Source: Anaerolineae bacterium (GTDB lineage Bacteria; Chloroflexota; Anaerolineae; Aggregatilineales; UBA2796). From it: a stretch of 64,000 nt of DNA. Of the stretch, positions 52,635-59,356 are shown in pieces. The stretch covers positions 62,001-126,000 of the forward strand of contig JAHBVJ010000023.1 of NCBI GenBank assembly GCA_019637615.1, read 5' to 3'. Every line of letters begins with the position of its first letter. Position 1 is the stretch's first letter. Made by a program: the position numbers and the translations under genes. Below the pieces are notes generated by a model that saw only the letters and a list, made by a program, of their open reading frames with translations, searched no databases and was not told the origin of the DNA.

Positions 52635-53992
52635 TGTCCGCGATACCACCGAAAACCGCCCTTGAAAGCCTTGATCGTGATGAACTGCTGGTGACTGTCC
52701 GCCGGCTGCTGGTAGAGGCCGATTCGCTTTCGAGTCGGATTTCAGCGGTGAACGAGATCGGGATCGCGATGAACCGCACGCTGGATTTGACCACGATCCA
52801 GCATGTAATCGCCAAACAAGCCAAATGGCTGCTCGACTTCACGCATATGAACGTGTGCCTCAAAGATAAAACGGGCTGGCGTGTGATCACCCTGTTCGGG
52901 CCGAGCGAACCGCAGCCCGCCGATTTGATGCAGTGTGAGAATATCGCGCCCGTGCTCGTGAACGGGCAGCCGCGCCTGATCAGTGATGGATCGCCGTCAC
53001 CGTTTCTCACCAATTACCGATCACAACTGCTGATCACGCTGTCGGCGGATAACGCGGTATTGGGCGCGATCAACTTCGCCGCCGTCGAGCCAAATTCCTA
53101 TTCTCAAGACGATATGCGCATCGCCTACATGCTGTCACTGCAACTTTCCTCCGCGATTCGCAACGCCAATATCTTCGCGGAACTGCAACAGACGCAAGAA
53201 ACGCTCAAGACGCTGGTGGAAGAATTGGACGCTTACGGTCACACCATCGCGCATGACTTGAAGACACCGTTGAGCAATGTGCTGCTGTGGAGCGAACTAT
53301 TCAAGAAGATGTACGGAACGCGCATCCCGCCCGAATCGGTGCGTTACATCGACACCATCCATGATAGCGGTCGGTTGATGAACCGCATGATCGATCAGTT
53401 ACTATCGCTTGCCAAGCTGCGCCATACGCCGCAGAATCGGGTGCCCGTGGACGCTGGATGCGCGGTCGATGCTGCTGTGCTGCGCTTCAGCCACCAATTG
53501 GACGCACGCCAGATCGCGATGCAGGTCGCCCCGAATATGCCAGCCGCTTTGGGCTATGAGCAGTGGATTGAGGAAATCTTCGCCAACTTGATCAGCAACG
53601 CGATTAAGTATATGGGCGAAGATAACGCCAACCCACGTATCGAGGTGACGGGGACGACGCAAGGGGATCAGGTACGCTACGAGGTGCGCGATACAGGTGT
53701 CGGCATCAAGCCCGAAGATCAACAGCGGATGTTCGAAAAATTCACACGCTTGCATAATGCCAAGGCCGAAGGCTTGGGTTTGGGGCTGTCTATCGTCTTC
53801 CGCATGGTCAAGAAGATGGAAGGCAGTATCGGAGTTGAGAGCAGCGTGGGCGAAGGCAGCACCTTCTGGTTCACGCTGCCCGCCGTCATGCAACCGCCGC
53901 AAACCGAAAGTAAAACAGAACCACCATTGTCATCGGCATCCGTGAAGCCAGACACAATCACGAAGGCCGAAGCTCCTCCGCCAGCCCGTTAG
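52634..53992 (+). CDS. GAF domain sensor histidine kinase
   Basis: A 452-residue soluble kinase. Residues about 30-180 form a GAF domain (MNRTLDLTTIQHVIAKQAKWLL). A short coiled coil leads into HisKA with the phospho-acceptor His207 in AHDLKTPLSNVLLWSE, then HATPase_c with EIFANLISNAIKYM, DTGVGIKPEDQ and LGLGLSIVFRM. The tail is disordered and Pro/Thr/Glu-rich. There are no membrane segments, so it senses a cytoplasmic signal. No response regulator is adjacent. It is coupled to the CMD-family gene and overlaps the convergent permease gene by 4 nt. Confidence 0.92.
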   Translation: MSAIPPKTALESLDRDELLVTVRRLLVEADSLSSRISAVNEIGIAMNRTLDLTTIQHVIAKQAKWLLDFTHMNVCLKDKTGWRVITLFGPSEPQPADLMQCENIAPVLVNGQPRLISDGSPSPFLTNYRSQLLITLSADNAVLGAINFAAVEPNSYSQDDMRIAYMLSLQLSSAIRNANIFAELQQTQETLKTLVEELDAYGHTIAHDLKTPLSNVLLWSELFKKMYGTRIPPESVRYIDTIHDSGRLMNRMIDQLLSLAKLRHTPQNRVPVDAGCAVDAAVLRFSHQLDARQIAMQVAPNMPAALGYEQWIEEIFANLISNAIKYMGEDNANPRIEVTGTTQGDQVRYEVRDTGVGIKPEDQQRMFEKFTRLHNAKAEGLGLGLSIVFRMVKKMEGSIGVESSVGEGSTFWFTLPAVMQPPQTESKTEPPLSSASVKPDTITKAEAPPPAR

Positions 53993-54951
53993 CTGCGATT
54001 CAAGCGCGGATCGAGCGCATCCCGCAGACCATCACCGAGCAGATTGAAGCCGAGCACCGTCAACATGATCGCGAAGCCGGGGAAGAATACGAGATGCGGC
54101 GCGGTGAAGACGTAATTGCGCCCCTCGCTCAACATCTGCCCCCATTCCGGCGTGGGCGGTTGTGCCCCTAGCCCCAAAAACGACAGCGCGGCTGCTTCCA
54201 ATACCGCCGTGCCGATGCCCAAGGTGCCTTGCACAATGATTGGGGCGAGGGTGTTTGGCAAAATCTGGAAGAAGATGATGCGCAGCGCTGGCGTCCCCAA
54301 CGAGCGCGCCGCCGTCACATATTCCATCTCCTTGACCGCCAGCACACTCGCGCGAATCAGGCGGGCATAGACGGGAATCGAGACGATGGCGATCGCGAAC
54401 AACGCGTTTTGCAAGCCGGGGCCTCGGATCGTGACGATGGTGATCGCCAGCAGCAGCGACGGAAAGGCCAGCAGCACATCCATGAAACGCATCACGATGT
54501 TATCCGTCCAGCCGCCCGCATAGCCTGAGATTAAGCCAATGATGCTGCCCACGAGGATGGCGAAGATCACGCTGGTGATGCCAACCAGCAGCGAAACCCG
54601 CGACCCGAACACCACGCGGCTGAATAGATCGCGTGCGTTCAAATCTAAGCCCATGACGTGCTGCGCGCCAGTGCAGCCGTATATCGTCAGGCAGGGCGGT
54701 TTGCCGGGGAGCTTACCCGTTTCTCCCGGCTGCCCGATCATCGATTGGATCGGATCGTGCGTGGCGATCTGTCCGGCGAAGATGGCGACGAACACCAAAA
54801 AGCCGATGATGATCAGGCCGACGACTGCCGAGCGATTACGCAGCACATTGCGCAGTGTTTCTACGACGATGTGCTCCGAGGCCACTTTTTGCGGCTGCTG
54901 TGCATGTCCTAGCGTCAGGACGTTGGGATGTGGTTTCGCTTGGTCTGTCAT
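53989..54951 (-). CDS. Peptide-type ABC transporter permease (DppC/OppC-like)
   Basis: A 320-residue membrane permease of the DppC/OppC family. It has an N-terminal helix (VVGLIIIGFLVFVAIFAGQI), the periplasmic HDPIQSM region, and the BPD_transp_1 core with YVTAARSLGTPALRIIFFQILPN (EAA loop) and LSFLGLGAQPPTPEWGQML. It pairs with the DppB-like gene just upstream (12-nt gap) and the binding protein further upstream. The ATPase genes (DppD/F) are not in the window, so they are encoded elsewhere or shared. Confidence 0.93.
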   Translation of the reverse strand: MTDQAKPHPNVLTLGHAQQPQKVASEHIVVETLRNVLRNRSAVVGLIIIGFLVFVAIFAGQIATHDPIQSMIGQPGETGKLPGKPPCLTIYGCTGAQHVMGLDLNARDLFSRVVFGSRVSLLVGITSVIFAILVGSIIGLISGYAGGWTDNIVMRFMDVLLAFPSLLLAITIVTIRGPGLQNALFAIAIVSIPVYARLIRASVLAVKEMEYVTAARSLGTPALRIIFFQILPNTLAPIIVQGTLGIGTAVLEAAALSFLGLGAQPPTPEWGQMLSEGRNYVFTAPHLVFFPGFAIMLTVLGFNLLGDGLRDALDPRLNRS

Positions 54952-54963
54952 GCGGGCACCTGC

Positions 54964-56040
54964 TTAACTAAGACGAATACGCGGGTCGAGATAGCCATAG
55001 AGAATATCGACCGCCAAATTGATGATGAGAAAGGCCACCGCAGTCGTCAGCGTGACACCTTGCACCAAGGAATAATCGCGGGCGGTGATGCCTTCAAACA
55101 GCGTCTTGCCAATCCCCGCGAAGCCGAAAATAGTTTCCGTGAGCACCGCGCCCGCAATCAGCGCCCCGAAGTTCAAGCCGATGATGGTCACGACGGGCAG
55201 CAGCGCGTTGCTGACGGCGTGATACAACACGACACGGCGTTCGGTCAGCCCTTTGGAACGCGCCGTGCGGACGTAATCTTGACCGAGAATTTCGAGCACG
55301 CTGGCACGCGTGATGCGGGCGATGATCGACAGCGGAATGGTGCCGACGGCAATCGCGGGCAGAATGATGTGCCGGAGCGCGTCGATGAACTGTGTGCCGT
55401 TGAACGTGAACAGCGCGTTGATGAAATTAAAGCGCGAAAGGAAGATCAAGACCGATCCGGCAGTCTCCTCGCTGGTGGCGATACCCCACGCGGTATAAAA
55501 CGGCGTGTAATTCGCGCCCGCTGTCAAGCGTCCGGACGGCGGCAAGGCAAACGGCGTATCTTTGAGGATCACGCCGAAAATAAAGGCCAACATCAAGCCC
55601 AACCAGAAGACGGGCATCGAGACGCCGATGTTCGCGCCGATCATGGTGCCGACATCAATGGCGGAATTGTGACGGTAAGCGGAGAGGACGCCCAACGGGA
55701 CGCCCACGATCACGGCAAGGAACAGCGCGGTGATGGCTAACTCAATCGTGATCGGCATCCGTTCCGCTAACAAACTGGTGACGGGACGCCCGAAGCGCAG
55801 CGAATCACCGAGATCGCCCCGAAAAAAGCGCTCTATATATAGCAAGAACTGCGTCGCGATCGGCTGATCGTAGCCATAGCGACTGATGAAGTCGTTGCAG
55901 GTTGCTTCCGTCGCTTTTTCACCGAGGATGGCGCGGCAGGGATCGCCGGGGATGGAGCGCCCCAACGCGAACGTCACTAACAGGATGCCCAGTAAGACGG
56001 GGATGGCTAAGGCTAATCTTCTCAGGAGAAAGCGGGTCAT
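54964..56040 (-). CDS. Peptide-type ABC transporter permease (DppB/OppB-like)
   Basis: A 358-residue permease of the DppB/OppB family, with MTRFLLRRLALAIPVLLGILLVTFALGRSIPGDP at its N-terminus (positions 1-34), an EAA-type loop (DYVRTARSKGLTERRVVLYH) and a C-terminal TAVAFLIINLAVDILYGYLDPRIR. It forms a heterodimer with the DppC-like protein. A 10-bp hairpin separates it from the binding-protein gene upstream. Confidence 0.93.
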   Translation of the reverse strand: MTRFLLRRLALAIPVLLGILLVTFALGRSIPGDPCRAILGEKATEATCNDFISRYGYDQPIATQFLLYIERFFRGDLGDSLRFGRPVTSLLAERMPITIELAITALFLAVIVGVPLGVLSAYRHNSAIDVGTMIGANIGVSMPVFWLGLMLAFIFGVILKDTPFALPPSGRLTAGANYTPFYTAWGIATSEETAGSVLIFLSRFNFINALFTFNGTQFIDALRHIILPAIAVGTIPLSIIARITRASVLEILGQDYVRTARSKGLTERRVVLYHAVSNALLPVVTIIGLNFGALIAGAVLTETIFGFAGIGKTLFEGITARDYSLVQGVTLTTAVAFLIINLAVDILYGYLDPRIRLS

Positions 56041-56149: not shown

Positions 56150-57781
56150 TTACGACTTGGGTGGCGCGTTCAGGAAACCACCGAACAGCGCGCTGAAGTA
56201 GTCGAACGTGCCGGTGCGGCCCTTGTGCAGGGGGCTGGCGGCGTCCCACTGAGCGACCCACGAGGTCACTACGTCTTCAGCGTCGAGCGTGGAGCCATCG
56301 GAGAACTTGGCGTCGCGCAGCTTGAACGTCCACTCGGTCAGGTCGGCGTTGGCAGACCATTCCGACGCTAGACCGGGCACGACTTCACCACTGCCGAGCT
56401 TGTAACCGAGCAGCGATTCGTTGACCTGTTCGCAAGCACGCAGCGTCTCGCCGTCGGTCTCGTCCGCGCAGTACAGGCTGATGGGTTCAGCGTTCTGCAT
56501 CCAAATGATGTTGTCATCAGCGGGGTCTTCCATCACGCGGAACTGCTCACCAGCGGGTGAACCAGCATACGCACCCTTGATGGTGGCCTTGAAGGCATCC
56601 GCGCTGCCGCCGTTGGCAATTGGCACCATTGGCACGAAGTCAGCGATCTCATCGTTGGCTTGCTTGTACAGCTTCAAACGGGCATCCGCATCCGAGAGTT
56701 GAGCGGCTTGCTTGAGCAGTTCGGTCAACTTCGGGTCTTTGGCACCGAAGGAGTCGTTCGCGCCTTCGCCAAAGTGATAGTCGAGGAAGTTGGTCGCGTC
56801 TGGATAGTCAGCGCCCCAACCGAGCATGAACATCGGATATTCGCCCTTGGAAGCGCCGTCAAGGAAGGCACCCGACTCGACTACGTTGATTTCGAGTTCA
56901 ATGCCGATTTCCTTCAATTGGGCTTGAAGGTCTTGCGCCACCACACCGGGCTGCGGCAGGTAGCCACGCACGACATCGCGGTAGCTGATGGTGGTCTTGA
57001 TCGGCAGTTCGACGCCGGACTCTGCCAACAGTTTCTTCGCCATCTCAACGTCATACGGGATCACCTTGGCGTCCGGCGTGTAGCCGAAGATCGAGGCGGG
57101 CATGAACTGGTTGGCGACGGTGGACGCGGGCGGATAGAAGTTATCCACGATGCGCTGCTTGTCGATGCCGTAGGCAATCGCTTGACGCACCTTGACGTTG
57201 TCAAATGGTGGCTTGGTGTTGTTGAGGCCGAGATAGAAGACGTTGGTGGCTTCACGCGGGTACAGCTTGAAGTCAGAATTGCCTTCGATCACGGTGAAAT
57301 CGCCGGGGGCGGGGTTGTCGATGCCATCGACCGTGCCCGCTTGCAGTTCGTTCCAACGCGCGGCGGCTTCCGAGTTCCACTTGAAAATGACCTGTGGTTC
57401 TAGTGGTGCGTCGCCCCAGTAGTTGGGATTGGCTTTCAAGACGAGTTCGTTACCGCGATCCCATTTTTCCAGCATGTAAGGGCCGGTGCCGATGGGGTTG
57501 CTCAACAATTCATCACCGCCGCCACCTGTTGCGTTCAGTTGGTCAGCCGAGTGAATGCCAAAGGCCGAGAACGCCGCCTTGGCAGGGAAGGCCGGATCAG
57601 CGTAGCAGAAGGTGAACTTCACCGTGCTGGCATCGACTGCCTCGATGGACTTGATCTCTCCACCGTAGCTGCAATCATCTGCATAGTGGCCCATCAGGGG
57701 CTTGGCTTGAACCGGGAAGGCGAAGCTGGCAATGACTGTTGCCGCCATCAATGCGGCTAAACCACGTACTCCGTTCCTCAT
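56150..57781 (-). CDS. Circularly permuted family 5 (Opp/Dpp-type) solute-binding protein
   Basis: A 543-residue exported SBP_bac_5 protein with its segments in permuted order. After a Sec signal peptide (residues 1-26) the sequence starts in what is normally mid-domain (IKSIEAVDASTVKFTF, then NPIGTGPYMLEKW and NVKVRQAIAYGIDKQRIV). It runs to the normal C-terminus (about residue 420) and continues with what is normally the N-terminal module (residues 424-543: NIIWMQNAEPISLYC, EVVPGLASEWSANADLTEWT, FKLRDAKFSDGSTLDAEDVV). An AGGAG 7 nt before the ATG supports the start, and no N-terminal module precedes it. It should still deliver peptides or similar solutes to the adjacent permeases. Confidence 0.9.
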   Translation of the reverse strand: MRNGVRGLAALMAATVIASFAFPVQAKPLMGHYADDCSYGGEIKSIEAVDASTVKFTFCYADPAFPAKAAFSAFGIHSADQLNATGGGGDELLSNPIGTGPYMLEKWDRGNELVLKANPNYWGDAPLEPQVIFKWNSEAAARWNELQAGTVDGIDNPAPGDFTVIEGNSDFKLYPREATNVFYLGLNNTKPPFDNVKVRQAIAYGIDKQRIVDNFYPPASTVANQFMPASIFGYTPDAKVIPYDVEMAKKLLAESGVELPIKTTISYRDVVRGYLPQPGVVAQDLQAQLKEIGIELEINVVESGAFLDGASKGEYPMFMLGWGADYPDATNFLDYHFGEGANDSFGAKDPKLTELLKQAAQLSDADARLKLYKQANDEIADFVPMVPIANGGSADAFKATIKGAYAGSPAGEQFRVMEDPADDNIIWMQNAEPISLYCADETDGETLRACEQVNESLLGYKLGSGEVVPGLASEWSANADLTEWTFKLRDAKFSDGSTLDAEDVVTSWVAQWDAASPLHKGRTGTFDYFSALFGGFLNAPPKS

Positions 57782-57922
57782 CTTTTACTCCTATAAAAAT
57801 AAAGCGACCAGTGACGGATGCGTCATTCGCAGAGCATCATATTACTGTACCATGCGGCGAGTTGCCACAAGTTGTATCGGAATTCTGCACGAAACATGTC
57901 AAAAGACGTAGGGGCACATAAC

Positions 57923-59356
57923 CTAACCCCGTTGCCGCGCCGCGCCATACAACGCCATGACATGTTCGCGCTGCTCGGCGTGGTCAACGATGGGCGCGGG
58001 ATAATCCTTCCCGATCTGGACGCCACATTGCGCTTGCTCCATCGGCAGCATCCCCGCCGGACGGTGAATATGCGCGTCCGGCACCGCGCGCAGTTCTGGC
58101 ACCCAATGGCGGATGTATGCGCCCGTTGGATCAAATTTCTCGCTTTGGGTGGTCGGGTTGAAGATGCGGAAATAGGGGGAGGCATCCGTCCCCGTTCCCG
58201 CGACCCACTGCCAGTTGCCAGCGTTATTGGCGACCTCGCCATCCAGCAAGCGTTGCATGAAGTAGCCTTCGCCCCAACGCCAATCGATCAGCAGGTCTTT
58301 GACGAGAAACGAAGCGGCAATCATGCGGGCGCGGTTATGCATCCAGCCGGTAGCGTTCAGTTGGCGCATGGCGGCGTCCACGATGGGAAAACCCGTTTGT
58401 CCCTGCTGCCACAGCGCGAATAACTGCGGATCGTTGCGCCACTGAATGTTGTCATAAACGGGACGGAAAGCACGCCGTACGATATGCGGGTGACGCGCCA
58501 AAATCTGATAGTTGAATTCGCGCCAGACCAGTTCTCCGATCCATGTGCCGACATTTTCCCGCTGCTCTTGATGCTGCGCCGCGTGCATGGCCTCGATAGA
58601 TGCCGTGTAACAGGTGCGCGGGCTGATCATACCCCACCGCAGATACGGGCTGAGGATCGAGGTGCCATCGACGGCGGGCAGATCGCGCTGATCACGATAG
58701 CGGAAGGCAAGACCATCGATGAAGTAGTCCAGACGGCGCAGGGCTTCGGCTTCTCCCGTCGCACAAATTGGCTGTGGCGCAGCGTCGAACTGACTCGGAT
58801 CGGGCAGCGGATCGCTGTGAAGATCGGCGGGTGCGATAAGACAGCTGAGATCGGTTGGCACGGGCAGCGGATCAGGCTTGGGAAGCATCGACCACGCATT
58901 ACGGTAGCGTGTATAGACTTCATAGCCTTTGCCTGTGCTCGTCGTCACTTCGGCGGCCTCATGGATGACGAGGTCTTTGAAATCACGGACGAGATAGCCC
59001 TGCCGTGTGAGCGCGCCCCGCACGGCCTGATCGCGCTTGGTGGCGTACCCGCTGTAATCACGGTTGAAGTACACGCCTGCCGCATCGGCTTCCGCGCACA
59101 ACGTGACGAGTTGCTCCGCCGGATCGCCGCGCCGGATGATCAAGCACCCGCCGGATGCACGTAGATCGGCGTCGAAGCGGCGTAGCGCGTCCATCAGCCA
59201 TGCCGTGCGATAGCCCTGCGTGCGCGGCAATTTTAGCAGGGTATCATCGAGAATGAAGACAGGAATCACGCTGGCGGCATCAGTGAGCGCGGCGGTGAGG
59301 GCAGTGTTATCCGTCAGGCGGAAATCACGGCGCAGCCACCAGATCAAGCGTTGCAT
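57923..59356 (-). CDS. phrB: Cryptochrome/photolyase family protein (CPD photolyase)
   Basis: A 477-residue class I-type photolyase. The N-terminal antenna domain starts with LIWWLRRDFRLTDNTAL. The FAD domain has ELVWREFNYQILARHP, GFPIVDAAMRQLNATGWMHNR and AGTGTDASPYFRIFNPT, very close to E. coli PhrB. It repairs cyclobutane pyrimidine dimers with light using FADH-. The antenna cofactor cannot be told. It is followed by the YjbR gene after 9 nt in the downstream direction of a short operon. Confidence 0.93.
   Translation of the reverse strand: MQRLIWWLRRDFRLTDNTALTAALTDAASVIPVFILDDTLLKLPRTQGYRTAWLMDALRRFDADLRASGGCLIIRRGDPAEQLVTLCAEADAAGVYFNRDYSGYATKRDQAVRGALTRQGYLVRDFKDLVIHEAAEVTTSTGKGYEVYTRYRNAWSMLPKPDPLPVPTDLSCLIAPADLHSDPLPDPSQFDAAPQPICATGEAEALRRLDYFIDGLAFRYRDQRDLPAVDGTSILSPYLRWGMISPRTCYTASIEAMHAAQHQEQRENVGTWIGELVWREFNYQILARHPHIVRRAFRPVYDNIQWRNDPQLFALWQQGQTGFPIVDAAMRQLNATGWMHNRARMIAASFLVKDLLIDWRWGEGYFMQRLLDGEVANNAGNWQWVAGTGTDASPYFRIFNPTTQSEKFDPTGAYIRHWVPELRAVPDAHIHRPAGMLPMEQAQCGVQIGKDYPAPIVDHAEQREHVMALYGAARQRG

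Follow-up and report, generated by a model that had tools for sequence, protein, structure and literature searches.

Within the window, a 64,000-nucleotide stretch of contig JAHBVJ010000023.1 from an Anaerolineae bacterium, we identified a gene for a permuted family 5 (DppA-like) solute-binding protein at 56150..57781 on the minus strand, the strand to which all window coordinates below refer. The gene is defined by a 543-aa open reading frame and by Pfam, DppA, and hidden Markov model (HMM) matches. As the first-pass annotation had reported, the reading frame is uninterrupted and the ribosome-binding site is strong (GGAG, 57788..57791, 6 nt 5' of the ATG). The same annotation described a clean signal peptide; on reading the sequence, we found a typical one at the N-terminus (aa 1 to 26, MRNGVRGLAALMAATVIASFAFPVQA; 57704..57781), plain and without a lipobox, in the place where relatives carry a signal peptide or a lipobox. 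The receptor gene also lies beside its two permease genes, as had been noted. The first, 109 bp from the receptor gene, encodes a DppB-type permease of 358 aa (54964..56040; BPD_transp_1, NCBIfam DppB E 7.8e-88), and the second, after a further gap of 12 bp, encodes a DppC-type permease of 320 aa (53989..54951; BPD_transp_1 and OppC_N, NCBIfam DppC E 1.7e-87). Of the components of a DppABCDF-type importer, the window therefore holds two permeases beside the receptor and no ATPase genes adjacent to the operon, the next genes being on the other strand. The gene immediately upstream of the receptor gene encodes a DNA photolyase and has the same orientation (57923-59356).

The score of the receptor against Pfam PF00496 (291 bits, cut-off 32.4) places it in family 5, and its match to the SBP_bac_5 profile consists of two swapped pieces: aa 37 to 342 correspond to profile positions 61 to 366, and the last 126 aa correspond to positions 1 to 52. 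When we searched solved structures with phmmer, aa 43 to 412 aligned with residues 124 to 498 of DppA (1dpe) and aa 455 to 532 with residues 34 to 118. Searched alone, the C-terminal 126 aa found the N-terminal module of DppA (E 1.1e-9). The receptor does not show the collinear order of family 5, which is signal peptide, N-terminal module, middle, and C-terminus. Because it is homologous to the family but permuted, with two swapped stretches, we do not file it as an ordinary SBP_bac_5 member.

We examined the order further with an HMM of 487 positions built from 37 normal-order relatives. In its native order, the receptor matched this HMM as two domains, the first covering HMM positions 112 to 474 at aa 40 to 408 (E 1.9e-111) and the second covering positions 11 to 96 at aa 426 to 510 (E 3.9e-21). 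Once rearranged, the chain matched as one continuous domain (positions 14 to 474, 448 bits), which is the outcome that the first-pass annotation had named as support for a circular permutation of a DppA/OppA-type protein. The swapped matches and the HMM agree with its reading of the order as signal peptide, then middle and C-terminus, then N-terminal module, and the HMM and DppA matches likewise bear out its placement of the N-terminal module at the far C-terminus (residues 424 to 543 in that annotation, aa 423 to 543 in our analysis). The possibility that the C-terminal segment is unrelated to the N-terminal module was ruled out by the HMM and PDB matches.

Scanning every circular cut point, we obtained the optimal HMM score at aa 411 to 425, which is the meeting place of the ancestral C- and N-terminus. 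Taken together with the alignments, this divides the mature protein into three parts. The middle and C-terminal body (aa 27 to 418; 56528..57703) corresponds to DppA residues of about 116 to 507, according to phmmer and to a VIA-align comparison with 1dpp. A fusion joint of aa 419 to 422 (56516..56527) links the ancestral C-terminus with what was once the N-terminus, and the relocated N-terminal module (aa 423 to 543; 56153..56515), identified by Pfam, DppA, and HMM matches and by the search with the module alone, corresponds to DppA residues of about 1 to 118. The new break relative to normal proteins falls between DppA residues 118 and 124. The first-pass annotation had placed it after AEDVVTSWVAQW, and here the alignments disagree, putting the break about 25 residues further on, after ...YFSALFGGFLN.

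An AlphaFold2 model of the native order was of modest confidence (pLDDT 66.8, pTM 0.65) and used only 10 sequences. With VIA-align, aa 37 to 420 of this model superposed on residues 116 to 507 of DppA (1dpp) over 380 residues (Z 28.6, rmsd 3.8), the C-terminal module being outside the alignment; across DppA and OppA structures, aa 31 to 422 gave Z values of 24 to 29, again for a model with a pLDDT of 66.8 and without coverage of that module. Sequential aligners omit a permuted C-terminal module, and its placement on the body is outside their reach. Folded alone, the module gave a poor model (pLDDT 47.4). Its local pLDDT was about 91 at aa 471 to 500 in the whole chain and about 52 to 66 when alone, and this higher confidence in the whole chain is consistent with packing of the module on the body. 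The complete permuted chain would probably adopt a two-lobe fold. In OppA, domain I holds both termini (residues 1 to 44 and 487 to 517), and domain II comprises residues 45 to 188 (PMC6305025). Because the ancestral termini both lie in domain I, the joint would lie in domain I as well and would need only about four residues. By analogy, the new termini most likely open in the peripheral domain II.

The two residues that form salt bridges with the ligand in DppA-type proteins are both present in the receptor. Arg272 (56966..56968) aligns with DppA Arg355 (Arg383 in precursor numbering), the residue that contacts the ligand carboxylate in DppA structures, and it is kept in 71 of 72 permuted sequences. 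Asp325 (56807..56809) aligns with DppA Asp408 (precursor Asp436), whose role with the ligand amino group has been described (PMC3295651), and is present in all 72. The equivalents of Arg355 and Asp408 are conserved in all seven normal-order sisters that we checked, and in entry 8z1z the two DppA residues, numbered R383 and D436, are mutated together. Our best guess for the ligand, drawn from these two residues only, is a dipeptide or another short peptide.

The receptor has exactly four cysteines, at positions 37, 59, 438, and 450. The alignment shows that Cys438 and Cys450 (56432..56470) are both present in 70 permuted sequences and both absent in 2; being kept or lost together is what would be expected for a disulfide. 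The same pair also occurs in a normal-order relative, L105. The pair Cys37 and Cys59 (57605..57673), near the new N-terminus, is specific to the permuted clade and probably forms a disulfide. Of the 72 permuted sequences, 71 have Cys59, and no normal-order relative does; a second cysteine, located shortly after the new N-terminus, usually accompanies it. If both pairs are disulfides, as these patterns suggest, the Cys59 pair may staple the freed N-terminal end.

We then considered how widely the permuted form is distributed. Scanning one genome per species, we detected nine permuted homologues (L031 to L039), all labelled Anaerolineae, Caldilineales, or Chloroflexi. Matches running through both segments were present in 19 of 61 close-relative genomes, the window's own included, and the permuted form occurred in about 54 of 400 Chloroflexota genomes, with one of the 54 cut by a contig end. 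Six more matches among the 400 genomes, which stopped near aa 415, proved to be normal-order proteins. The permuted homologues are 37 to 75% identical to the window protein, with both segments covered. The permuted form was also present in 3 of 296 genomes (L127 to L129) from the phylum to which an Actinomycetota record belongs. In the phyla of an Oscillospiraceae record (L042) and a Rhodospirillaceae record (L045), it was found in 0 of 299 genomes each at E 1e-50, and all matches there ended before about aa 430, the pattern of normal-order proteins. No relative turned up when viral contigs were searched with the alignment of the family. In total, more than 70 full-length genes from independently assembled genomes share the permuted order. 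On these comparisons, the rearranged order is an old, inherited design found across Chloroflexota and not an error. Within the window's own genus and family, the permuted gene was present in 1 of 10 other genomes (G001 to G010), a patchy presence that may reflect loss, transfer, or incomplete drafts. One genome (G410; L118, L119) has several tandem permuted copies, which are about 40 to 46% identical to the window protein.

For phylogenetic analysis, every sequence was first put into ordinary order. The 75 permuted sequences all fell into one clade (SH-like support 0.989). Its stem is long (0.62), and the clade sits inside a group of DppA-like proteins of normal order from Actinomycetota, Chloroflexota, and Bacillota. 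The exact sister of the clade is not firmly placed across analyses. L127 to L129 fell among the Chloroflexota sequences, beside L059, which suggests transfer or misbinned contigs.

The operon context is also shared. At most permuted loci, dppB lies directly downstream of the receptor gene and is followed by dppC, and ATPase genes follow the permuted receptor in L117, L118, L148 to L150, and others. Two loci, L155 and L158, have no DppB- or DppC-like gene within the 13 to 14 kb around the permuted receptor, and these may be orphan receptors. A loose pattern picked out lipobox-like motifs upstream of the permuted domain in about 47 of the 75 members. The permutation had been proposed to alter export; because signal peptides or lipoboxes occupy the new N-terminus across the family, such an effect is unsupported. 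Some members carry another binding protein ahead of the permuted domain. In a Caldilineales sequence (L039:2927-5536, plus strand), an SBP_bac_3 amino-acid receptor is joined by an Ala/Pro linker to the permuted domain in a single 870-aa open frame, a dual binding protein, and in L093:1492-3825 (minus strand), a Peripla_BP_6 receptor of the branched-chain amino-acid type precedes the permuted domain, with the start cut by a contig end.

The best explanation of these data, to which we assign a probability of roughly 0.88, is that the gene encodes an exported receptor of a di- or oligopeptide ABC importer, and that the circularly permuted chain of this receptor folds into the two-lobed structure usual for family 5. 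In a single ancestral event, for which the simplest route would be tandem duplication or fusion and then loss of the outer portions, the ancestral C-terminus would have been linked to the mature N-terminus with almost nothing between them. New termini would have opened in the peripheral domain II, between the positions that match DppA residues 118 and 124, and the signal peptide is now attached there. Using Arg272 and Asp325, both of which it has kept, the receptor would then close around its ligand and pass it to DppBC, encoded downstream.

We weighed several alternatives to this explanation. The window comes from an unfinished draft of 76 contigs, with 85% completeness and 6.9% contamination, and a normal-order gene could in principle have been misjoined during assembly or binning of a metagenome-assembled genome. 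However, dozens of genomes that were assembled separately contain the same order, joint, and operon, with the gene in full length, and some permuted copies lie on megabase contigs (G268 C1 and G065 C1, both single-contig genomes). Because the more than 70 full-length genes from separate assemblies share the order, we regard assembly error as excluded for practical purposes. A chimera, in which the C-terminal module came from another binding protein and was fused to a receptor that had lost its own N-terminus, is a second alternative, given that this possibility has been raised for a permuted Treponema protein (PMC4990184) and that members of the permuted family do fuse with other binding proteins, as in L039 and L093. 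When profiles of the two segments were scored in bits on 61 normal-order proteins, however, both segments ranked these relatives almost identically (Spearman 0.92), and the permuted clade stayed monophyletic with either segment alone, with weak deep support for the short module (0.315 at the next node). The like ranking and the intact clade per segment favour a true rearrangement of a single protein over a joining of pieces from two, and the Cys438/Cys450 pair in the normal-order L105 also speaks against a chimera, which we consider improbable. The evidence for permutation over chimerism is strong, if not absolute.

It is similarly improbable that the protein has lost its transport role and now acts, with its changed topology, as a receptor for sensing or scavenging. 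The lack of permeases in the fetched flanks of L155 and L158 and the lack of adjoining ATPase genes in the window would fit such a role, but dppB directly follows the receptor in most loci, ATPases are present in several, and neither of the two ligand salt-bridge residues has been lost. A further question is whether the permutation was itself selected: moving the tether from domain I to domain II might alter anchoring or docking to DppBC and allow fusion behind other receptors. We think this doubtful as an addition to the permuted-importer explanation; the fusions that can be cited for it, SBP_bac_3 with permuted SBP_bac_5 (L039) and Peripla_BP_6 with permuted SBP_bac_5 (L093), have a small chance of reflecting such selection.

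Compared to DppA (1dpe, 1dpp), the window protein shows full-length homology once rearranged, the same Arg and Asp residues, and DppB and DppC partner types, but it is permuted, only about 28 to 30% identical, and has extra cysteine pairs. Its score against the NCBIfam DppA equivalog (207.8 bits) is far under the cut-off of 1005. Its nearest relatives are normal-order DppA-like proteins of Actinomycetota, Bacillota, and Chloroflexota (L105 to L110, L130 to L132, L136 to L147; about 32 to 39% identity), which differ in having the ordinary order and, in those checked, no Cys37/Cys59 pair. We found no NCBIfam model for the permuted receptor and, among the PDB matches listed, no chain collinear with the whole protein. 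In the papers that we searched, we found no permuted family 5 receptor, and the sole natural precedent among them was Tp0684 (MglB-2) of Treponema pallidum, a permuted sugar receptor with a solved structure and retained binding, for whose class the name 'Type Ic / cluster Bc' has been proposed (PMC4990184). Both are natural, clade-conserved, circularly permuted binding proteins of ABC importers. Tp0684, however, has a sugar-binding Type I / cluster B fold and arose by an independent event with another break point, and its moved part is only 13% identical to the MglB counterpart (PMC4990184); in Pfam, the window protein matches only SBP_bac_5 and no Type I / cluster B family.

Few cases of natural circular permutation in transporter receptors have been documented. 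In this instance, one event within a large family of peptide receptors gave rise to a clade that has spread through a phylum while keeping its operon, and the normal-order relatives thus provide a direct before-and-after comparison for folding, closing, and docking. The gene also carries a warning for annotation, since profile searches return two fragments and a permuted gene can pass for one that is truncated or broken. Finally, the joint and the new termini mark natural positions for sensor design.
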